Positions 17,301 to 20,300 of a DNA stretch of 64,000 nucleotides are shown here, piece by piece (positions within the stretch are counted from its first letter, which is position 1; each line of letters starts with the position of its first letter). Under the pieces are notes generated by a model. That model was not told the origin of the DNA. It did no database searches and saw nothing but the letters and a program-made list of their open reading frames with translations. The translations under genes were made by a program, and so were the position numbers. Source of the DNA: Nereocystis luetkeana (Eukaryota > Sar > Phaeophyceae > Laminariales > Laminariaceae); NCBI GenBank assembly GCA_031213475.1, contig JARUPZ010000016.1, positions 8,820,270 to 8,884,269 on the forward strand. The letters are read 5' to 3'.

Positions 17301-20300
17301 CCTGCCGTTGTGAGAGGTTGTGCGGGATATGCATACAGTCTTACAGACCCAACCCAGGAAGCATGTGCTAAATCATGCAGAATTACGGGTCCCACCAGGC
17401 AACATGAGTTGAGATCATACGAGATCGGGCATAGATCTGCCTTGATTTATCTACGATAGACCATGAAGTGTACGTGATTTGTACATGATCTATACATGAT
17501 CTGTACATAATCTGTACCTGGTACATGATCTGTCCGAGGTGTGGCAGGATCGCCACTCGGCGTCGTTTTTTTTGTCGCTTGACCTGGACCCCCTATATCA
17601 AAAAAGAAAAAGACCACACTACAAGTTCTAAAACAAAAATGAAAAAACAGCACTATTAAAACCAGGCGAACAGGCTGGGTCAAGCTCCCCTGCAGCTCAT
17701 TTCTCCCGAGAGTACACAGCAAAGACCCAAGAACGTTCAGTGCCAACTTGGTATTTTTACGGGGGGATTATAGTAAATATATACTGGTAATAATCGGAAC
17801 CAAATATGGTTATTACACGCAGGGGGATGTGTGGTTTCTGGGTCCATCGTGGGTTCTAATTACTGTGTACCGCTCTGGTCGTAAATGTAAGCACCGCTTG
17901 ATCTTCATTCTAATGACTAAACGTTCCTTTCATTTCTTGTCATCATAGTGGCATTACCATGACCCCCCGAAATATTTTGTTTTGGGGCGCTCAAAAGGGG
18001 GGAAAACTGACGGAAAACAAATGATGATGATGATGATTTCGGCACCGGCTGCACCAAGCAGCCCGGGCTTGTGGGTTAGACAGGAGGAGATGGTACGTTT
18101 TTTGTGATCGAGCTGAGTTATACCGTCTGTATGATATAACACTATCACGCTAGGGTGACAGGATAGCACACCCCCGTCGGAAGAATCTCGAAGCCGATTC
18201 TGTCGACAACGGGGGGACAGTTCGAAACGTCGAGCGACGCAGTTGAGGTAAGATATCGAGGAGATATCTCGGTAGTAGTGGGGGGTTGACATCGAATCTT
18301 CGTACGTAAGGTAGCTTTGTGGGCACTCTGATTGGGCGAGGCTGTATTATATGCGGCTCAACCGAAACCTAGGAGTCTTTTCCTTTCCTTGCCACAGCAT
18401 CCCGAGCCGGCCGAAGCAACCTACGGACCTTTCCAAGCACAGCATTCAAGCCGGTCGGGTCAACCTAGGGTCTTCACAAGCTCAACATCCAAACAATGAC
18501 TACCGTCATAGGGTTGGGGATAGGGTCGGAGGGTCGGCTTTGGGCGCCAAGCATTGAACCCCCGTAAATATCCACTATCAAGGTGTGACCACCCCTTAAA
18601 TCATCTTCCCAAAGCCGCCATTTTCGTTGCGTCCGCCGTCCAGTTTTTGGAAAAAAGTGCCTCTGAAATTTGCCCCCAGGGTGTGTGTTATCTGTTATCT
18701 CATCACCCGTGTGATGAGGTGTACGACGCGTGGTGAATGGTGCTTACTCGAGCTGCTGCGCGCTCAGTCACACCCCAGACGGTTGGCACGGTTGTGGTCC
18801 TTCTGTGGTCGGTTAAATAATGCCTGTTGCACGCTTAATGCCTGTGAAATCGCTTGGCACAGATGGGATTAACCAGTGTGGCAGTGTGCTGTTAATAGTG
18901 ATGGTTGACGCTATATAGTGCCGGTTGCCGCTATATAGTGCCGGTTGACGCTATATAGTACCGGTTGCCGCTATATAGTGCCGGTTGCCGCTATATAGTG
19001 CCGGTTGACGCTATATAGTACCGGTTGCCGCTATATAGTGCCGGTTGCCGCTACTTAGTGCCGGTTGACGCTATATAGTACCGTTTGCCGCTATATAGTG
19101 CCGGTATTGTTGCCTTTACTGCAGCGCATACCGGCACTATGTAGGGTCCACTATGACTGTGTGCTATCGGTATCGTACGTTGTTGTGTTTTCGGTAGCTT
19201 TACCCGGGTCCCAGAAGAGCCTTGGGAGGAGAAAAAAAGTGACCACAGTATTAAACGACGAATACAATATTGGTCACTGCTTGCTCGGGTGTGCGTGCTC
19301 ATGTCTTGAATGGGGGGGGGGGGGTACTCGATAAGAGAGATGTACTCAATCTCATGCATGGTCGTAGTCGTATCACCATAGACCCTCGCATCCCTACAAT
19401 GCCGGGACGGAGCATGTCGGGTTTTCACCGACCAGGCAGACATTGCTTGCACCAATCGCGAAGCGCCGTGAGGTGTCTGGCGAGTCGCATGAAGGGTGAG
19501 CTGCATCCTACTAAGAACCACTTTTGAGGCGGGCTTGCATATGGACGACAGCTTCAATGAGTTGATTTAATTTCCGGGGTAGGCATTTCCAGATACAGCA
19601 ATGGGAGTACTATGTAACTGGGGGGGGGGGCGTATTCATTTGTTGCTTACCTCGGTCATTTTGACCATTGACCACGCACCGCTTTCGAGGCGGAGCACCG
19701 TTCCTACTCCTATCAGGTACTAGAGACGCCTCCAACACTTGGGCGCTCTTCGGGGGGTGATGAATTTGGTGTCCGATCTACTGTACGTATTGTTTGAACC
19801 CTTTTAGTGCAAACTGCGGACGCGTTTTGAGCACAAACCACTCTAATGCCAAGTAGTTTGCCCCAGAAACGGGGCTGACTGTAGCCCTAAAAGGTGTTCA
19901 ATCCTTTCACCACTGCACCGTACAGACACCTAGACCTCAGTGTAGTTCCGAGTGTTCTTGTCCCCGCTACCGGACTGCAGTCCTAAACGGGCTGTGGGGT
20001 CATACGAGACGGGCGCAGCATGATCTTGCTCGCATTGCTTGTGTGGGTTCTTCACATTAAACCGTTCTTTCTACCCGTCGACATCCAGCACAACCAGCGT
20101 CCGTGCCGATTCTTCAACCCTAGAAGAGATACCTGGTACAAGTTATCCTGTGGTCACAAAGCTACGCCACAGGGATACTACGTTGCCACGTACCAGTATG
20201 CAGTAAGCACAGTTAGCAGTGAGCGATGCAATGCCATGTCATCATACTGCATTGCTGCGCGTTCATGTCGTATCGTATCATATCATATAATATCACATAA

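Follow-up and report, generated by a model that had tools for sequence, protein, structure and literature searches.

Short insertions at TA dinucleotides in the window

The window (the whole 64-kb stretch of Nereocystis luetkeana DNA analysed here) contains copies of a repeat, designated R, that differ by short insertions at two TA dinucleotides. Copy 1 (20039..20248, minus strand; 86% to copy 4) carries TACCTGGTA at 20130..20138 (site A) and the shorter TACCAGTA at 20191..20198 (site B), which are an unbroken 7-bp and a 6-bp insertion, respectively, relative to copy 4 (36191..36390, plus strand), where a bare single TA is read directly at 36296-36297 and at 36242-36243. Alignment of the R copies places copy 2 at 20424..20618 (minus strand), with TACCAGTA, the CCAG state, at site A (20511..20518), and a further copy elsewhere in the genome (L019:831) has the full 5-bp form, CCAGG followed by TA, at the second TA. 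Each TA of R is thus filled in at least two copies, and with inserts of at least two forms. The sequence-only reading of this stretch had set TA+CCTGGTA and TA+CCAGTA in copy 1 against the bare TA of copy 4, and its coordinates are exact; the three states that it described for one and the same TA are likewise recovered by direct reading and alignment (bare in copy 4, CCTGG in copy 1, CCAG in copy 2). It had, however, tied the event to R and to MITEs, and the event proves much more general, occurring about once per 2.5 kb genome-wide.

The full form, TACCWGGTA, is referred to below as a scar, after the interpretation favoured here. Beyond R, the TACCAGGTA version lies within a TTACGG-type MITE (H1) at 17262..17270, where paralogues have a bare TA, and was found by word scan at 1499..1507, 9667..9675, 20798..20806, 20846..20854, 21144..21152 (adjoining a TTAACC MITE), 31931..31939, 38546..38554, 51526..51534, 59845..59853, and 60798..60806; the copy at 22111..22119 shows no clean gap against its single paralogue. 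The TACCTGGTA version was found in the same way at 1629..1637 (followed by the 4-bp form TACCAGTA at 1640-1647), 3052..3060, 6431..6439, 15121..15129, 30231..30239, 35851..35859, 36980..36988, 37336..37344, 43198..43206, 49145..49153, 55416..55424, 56432..56440, and 62175..62183, the last being 17 bp from a scar TACCTGGTA at 62158..62166 that occupies the TA bounding a Stowaway-like MITE copy. Two additional TACCTGGTA scars have empty-site matches of lower quality, one at 17515..17523 in a repetitive stretch, which is not a clean gap in the self-excluded test described below, and one at 28632..28640, a weak match in low-complexity sequence. Double scars, in which two scars have one TA in common, are present as TACCTGGTACCAGGTA at 6306..6321 and 30112..30127 and as TACCAGGTACCAGGTA at 49611..49626. 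A 4-bp scar, TACCAGTA, at 2035..2042 has a paralogue with a 6-bp gap.

The window also holds MITEs beginning TTAACCCTTTTAGGACCGCAGTCCCG that are apparently flanked by TTAA (320, 20947, 21153, and 57660), one of which lies within an R copy (20946-21044). Rfam (at the gathering threshold) and tRNA scans of the window found nothing, and Pfam comparison of 10 of its 37 long frames gave three weak matches, none passing the curated cut-off. With open frames chosen by length, the 10,314 bases within them held no scar, versus 12 in the 37,098 bases outside (Fisher p = 0.08), which is only suggestive of depletion in coding frames.

Evidence for insertion at TA

The presence of empty counterparts indicates that the extra bases were inserted at a pre-existing TA. 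After removal of CCWGGTA, 9 of the 102 scar sites with sufficient flank matched an empty site, compared with 28 of 2,000 control TAs, self-matches having been left in for both sets. One of the nine (L021:6279, a double scar) was a self-match and was dropped; the match is clear for L019:831, L020:6298, and window positions 17262 and 20130, fair for L006:1501, and weak or repetitive for L013:4504 and window positions 17515 and 28632. When self-matches were excluded, an alignable paralogue was available for 18 of 130 scars. In four of these 18 the paralogue also carries the scar, all four cases belonging to the L055/L056 pair, which had been fetched for its scars. A single unbroken 7-bp gap separates scar and paralogue in 7 of the remaining 14, compared with 5 of 317 control TA-N5-TA sites, and the other seven show other gaps or mismatches; a looser first run of the same test gave 8 of 14 scars versus 7 of 323 controls. 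The clean 7-bp gap is therefore the commonest outcome in repeat alignments. Taken together, it is well supported that scars arise as 7-bp insertions, consisting of CCWGG and a second TA, that duplicate the TA, and the sequence-only reading of a fixed insert placed at TA, with the same TA reused across copies, is borne out.

Abundance and double scars

Scars are extraordinarily frequent. The window contains 35 TACCWGGTA, against a mean of 0.57 and a maximum of 3 in 100 dinucleotide shuffles, and the genome (465,085,209 bases in 1,987 contigs) contains 182,395, whereas the reversed word is found there 1,744 times. CCWGG ranks first among all words lying between two TAs (1-14 bases long and seen at least 5 times) when only occurrences with unlike flanks are counted. 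In the sample, 130 of 836 CCWGG are bounded by TA on both sides, and the next commonest flank pair accounts for 18, which answers in favour of the sequence-only reading the question of whether the extra bases are TA-bounded. Carrier repeats have multiplied some scars, so that 182,395 should not be read as the number of separate events. Literature searches, both with the motif as letters and for similar reports, turned up no report of the motif among the papers listed.

Double scars number 15,917 genome-wide, as opposed to 2 for the reversed word. The 59 plus-strand examples listed have A/A (23), T/T (17), A/T (14), and T/A (5) centres; since 19 of them combine unlike centres, they are not simple duplications of a single unit. 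Like centres are nevertheless favoured (40 of 59). In six of the 59, TACCAGTA follows about 200 bp later, and by this spacing the six look like copies of one repeat; sequence checks of two of them revealed a longer scar-carrying repeat. The excess of like centres thus partly reflects a single repeat family. L055 and L056 (C1:976630 and C1:2217082) represent a near-identical dispersed repeat in which a CCAG scar lies some 200 bp from a triple one, TATCAGG-TACCAGG-TACCAGG-TA.

On viral contigs, the H1 word has no matches and the double scar has three, which are taken as chance. EsV-1-7 domains abound in the genome (150 scored among 1,721 first-look candidates); this domain is reported to have proliferated in brown algae and to be otherwise mostly known from giant viruses (PMC12477816), and on these grounds the host is taken to be a brown alga.

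Length variants, decay, and age

Besides the dominant 5-bp form, shorter and longer versions occur. Ends beginning CCAG had been predicted to leave CCAG or CTGG, and in the sample these 4-bp forms (30) do outnumber CAGG and CCTG (7), some of the 30 sitting in TAG/CAG microsatellites. The 4-bp class is barely above an order-3 Markov expectation (23 and 21 contexts vs. 17.3), an expectation that is itself inflated by the scars. Among 6-bp forms between CC and GG, CCAGGG/CCCTGG was found at eight sites and CCCAGG/CCTGGG at one. Genome-wide, CCAG (46,688) exceeds CAGG (20,551), a contrast that is not clean given its uneven controls (29,541 and 8,021 for the respective reversed words). The 4-bp and 6-bp forms together favour CCAG ends without settling the matter.

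Scars also decay. One-mismatch versions number 184,988 genome-wide (64,511 for the reversed word) beside the 182,395 perfect sites, and the excess over the reversed word, 120,477 one-mismatch and 180,651 perfect sites, implies about 7% divergence per base. A 264-kb sample gives approximately 4-5%, based on 95 perfect and 98 one-mismatch sites where 59 of the latter are expected under an order-2 Markov model. Non-central transitions account for most of this surplus (50 vs. 19 expected; 48 vs. 40 for other one-mismatch forms), and the TAs themselves are mutated, with 32 transitions vs. about 10 expected. This mutational decay of roughly 4-7% shows that the insertions are inherited and decaying. 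By our own extrapolation, correcting for decay suggests a total of 270,000-340,000 sites, multiplied ones included.

A symmetric target around the scars

Scars lie in a symmetric target of the form TA-N4-R-TA-Y-N4-TA. In the 264-kb sample, after 16 half-sites running into another scar had been set aside, the base next to the scar TA, reading outward, is a pyrimidine in 78% of 174 half-sites, and TA occupies outward positions 6-7 in 56 of the 174, where 10.4 are expected. Genome-wide, 21,214 of the 182,395 sites (double scars included) have TA at positions 6-7 on both sides, vs. about 650 if the background TA frequency is squared. The 4-bp scars have the same fingerprint (11 of their 48 half-sites have TA at 6-7, vs. 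2.9 expected), and in two of the clear pairs, L019:831 and window 17262, a TA is already present at this spacing on one flank of the empty copy. The A-centred motif is mildly asymmetric: a pyrimidine is present in 99 of 114 on one side and in 81 of 116 on the other. The flanks are thus correlated with the centre base, a feature that the sequence-only reading had not predicted.

In the Tc1/mariner group, a dimeric transposase acting at TA gives rise to a symmetric target around it. The symmetric, TA-rich target found here is of this kind and supports the sequence-only reading. ZB is described as preferring a palindromic AT repeat as target (PMC7913693). TACAGTA/TACTGTA is also raised in the window (30 vs. 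about 10); its flanks differ from those of the scars, and it is therefore not counted as the same event. This excess may represent pogo scars or microsatellite sequence.

Search for the source element

The sequence-only reading had proposed a search for TA-flanked elements with CCAG ends, and TA-anchored word, inverted-end, and large-insertion scans of about 300 kb yielded no such family that could be accepted. Finding none in 299,072 bases allows at most about 4,700 copies genome-wide (95%), provided that the ends are recognisable within one locus. Several candidates were rejected: L007:2589-2688, a stretch shared with the overlapping L008 and L009, lies in a degenerate GTTACC-like repeat; window 9669-17521 merely joins two scars; the structure with about 200-bp spacing near double scars is the longer repeat that carries them; and L022:8424-8987, an inverted-end match, has no second complete copy. 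Matches of the latter to two other places (82-83%) are confined to its positions 11-70, and we read its left end as a diverged Stowaway-like MITE.

Profile searches with DDE_3, Transposase_1, and DDE_1 likewise produced no family accepted as the source of the scars. Transposase_1 (PF01359) had no matches in this genome, and the control genomes also had none. The DDE_3 family was rejected since its 3' end is of the TTACGG type in the four copies read. A young Tc1-like family occupies ten top-scoring places (C7:5298669, C10:3954053, and eight more; L049-L054), with 437-515 aa frames free of stops, two copies being 99.75% identical over 1.2 kb. Its 3' end is CCTCCGTAA-TA (ends TTACGGAGG); it has TTACGG termini and is kin to the abundant H1 MITE, of which it is probably the autonomous partner. 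H1 MITEs, with TA-TTACGGGGGACC..., lie at window positions 6027, 15691, 17170, 22132, 22659, 24673, 26965, 29084, 31717, 49229, and 60494. Sample-wide, TA-TTAA-TA occurs in 62 unlike contexts vs. 13 expected, and may be what the TTACGG family leaves behind on excision (TT + AA).

Other resident families include Stowaway-like S1 MITEs, here in a brown alga, which begin CCACTCTG and have TA-CCACTCTGTCCC ends (window 14757, 26133, 26375, 48279, and 62076), and pogo-type (DDE_1) elements inserted at TA with CAGTGGGGGGCCC or CAGTACCGGCC ends (L034, L036, L041, L044, and L045), two pogo families beginning CAGT. In a comparison of flanks, H1 and S1 differ from the scars in target fingerprint. H1 insertions in the sample have G next to the TA at 42 of 66 ends and TA at positions 2-3 at 21 of 66; for S1, 2 of 36 ends have TA at 6-7, compared with 70 of 230 half-sites of scars. 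S1 members were collected at up to 3 mismatches and some of them are false, and a pogo-like set (29 ends) was weaker and left unused. With no TA-CCAG family accepted and the flanks of H1 and S1 unlike those of the scars, the source appears to be rare, extinct, or unrecognised. The missing donor is the weakest part of the case.

Origin of the scars

It is likely that most TACCWGGTA mark places where a TA-specific, cut-and-paste transposon of the Tc1/mariner type, with 5'-CCA(G) ends, was excised and the break healed. The insertions themselves are well supported and their reading as scars is probable; the sequence-only reading is partly supported, by insertion at TA, the target, and the 4-bp forms, but not as to excision itself, the donor, and the 5-bp length. 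Under this model, an element would have integrated into a TA, duplicating it, and subsequently excised. Cleavage by its transposase would leave, on either side, a 3' overhang made up of the element's terminal bases (CCA, CCAG, or CCAGG), and the two overhangs would meet with A facing A at the centre and be filled in or ligated to give CC(A/T)GG between two TAs. Overhangs of 5 nt could pair at four of five positions and those of 4 nt at two of three when overlapped, and those of 3 nt would only abut; all would fit the scar. The unusual uniformity of the scar would result from such a join being self-templating, and imperfect ends may account for the rarer CCAG/CTGG scars. The source would now be rare, lost, or diverged past recognition, its scars having outlived it, and other repeats would have multiplied some of them.

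A related but doubtful proposition is that a process, rather than a resident transposon, writes the fixed pentamer together with the TA duplication, either by a transposase that lets its cargo go and very reliably reseals its cuts via quasi-palindromic CCAGG overhangs or by direct addition. In a version that we regard as unlikely, the 7 bp are inserted as such by a TA-specific enzyme (an abortive transposase or a repair activity), and a full element was never involved. The highly uniform insert, the very large number of sites, and the lack of an accepted resident element with matching ends all speak for direct writing. However, the 4-bp and 6-bp variants resemble the products of end-processing, 5 bp of end is too little for a transposase to act on, and to our knowledge no activity writes CCWGG directly.

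It is quite improbable that the scars derive from a resident TA-specific family, namely TTACGG (the ten-copy Tc1-like family and H1), the S1 MITEs (TA-CCACTCTGTCCC), or pogo (CAGT ends). All three kinds are present in the genome, and S1 ends begin CCA, so that 3-nt overhangs placed end to end, A opposite A, could give CCWGG. Nevertheless, CCWGG does not come from either TTACGG or CAGT ends, and the insertion flanks of H1 and S1 are not those of the scars.

Selection for TACCWGGTA as a functional palindrome, i.e., a binding site or methylation motif, is very unlikely. The cyanobacterial palindrome HIP1 offers a parallel, and the present motif is both palindromic and extremely frequent; yet it arises as 7-bp insertions at TA, decays by transitions, has flanks with an insertion-target signature, and is present inside repeats. 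There is equally little probability that germline-limited elements are removed in a programmed manner each generation, similar to ciliate IESs, the assembly then representing the processed genome. Such a process would be in keeping with TA-bounded, numerous, and uniform sites whose source is unseen, but decay strikes the TAs (the 32 transitions above), which excision requiring TA should not allow. A sequencing or assembly artefact, which the regularity alone might suggest, can practically be dismissed, as the near-identical dispersed copies L055 and L056 have scars in common and the target fingerprint and decay are biological.

Comparison with known systems and significance

Scars with these features have partial counterparts in several TA-specific systems. 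Footprints of Sleeping Beauty and Tc1 take the form TA-CAG-TA or TA-CTG-TA, attributed to overhangs annealing with an A·A mismatch, and those of Mos1 are CCA or TGG. The scars resemble the former in the duplicated TA enclosing a short, A/T-centred palindrome and in the AT-palindromic target, and differ in being 5 bp long and far more uniform, with about 182,000 perfect copies and a source unseen here. Tc1/mariner footprints are reported as 2-4 bp, and that of ZB as 0-3 bp and similar to those of Sleeping Beauty and Frog Prince (PMC7913693). The dominant scar exceeds the 2-4 bp range, with 4-bp CCAG/CTGG as a minor class, and footprints described elsewhere are more varied than those found here (PMC4423477, PMC3770610). 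The Mos1 mariner element also targets TA, and its 5' ITR (CCAGGTGTACAAG...) starts with CCAGG, with a 3-base 3' overhang described on the transferred strand (PMC3419177); in contrast, the window shows no enrichment of the corresponding TACCATA/TATGGTA (8 vs. about 9). Stowaway and Osmar elements of grasses likewise leave short end fragments between duplicated TAs, with a case in which a later element inserted at the TA of an old footprint, but the footprints described there are 1-4 bp, of various sequence, and at few loci (PMC1925063), as opposed to one fixed pentamer genome-wide. Ectocarpus, also a brown alga with Tc1-Mariner families, has 17 such families with nearly 12,000 copies in all, the majority non-autonomous (PMC12477816). 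The main text of that report contains neither "footprint" nor "excision", and scars are apparently undiscussed there. Although the process resembles Tc1/mariner excision, the scars are not filed as those of a proven member, because of the 5-bp length beyond the published 2-4 bp and the donor not found. They are new in scale and uniformity; their mechanism is one that we infer.

As a rule, excision scars escape recognition in bulk because they are short and vary widely; a uniform scar makes past excisions visible genome-wide. Combined with the target-site fingerprint, its decay serves as a clock by which the insertion and loss of a possibly vanished DNA transposon can be measured. It also helps to locate hot target sites and to probe the repair of double-strand breaks in the brown-algal germline. 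The predicted CCA/CCAG ends, with self-pairing overhangs, would amount to an unusually accurate, though not seamless, exit from the genome, and if a resealing transposase were responsible, one element lineage would have signed approximately 270,000-340,000 sites.
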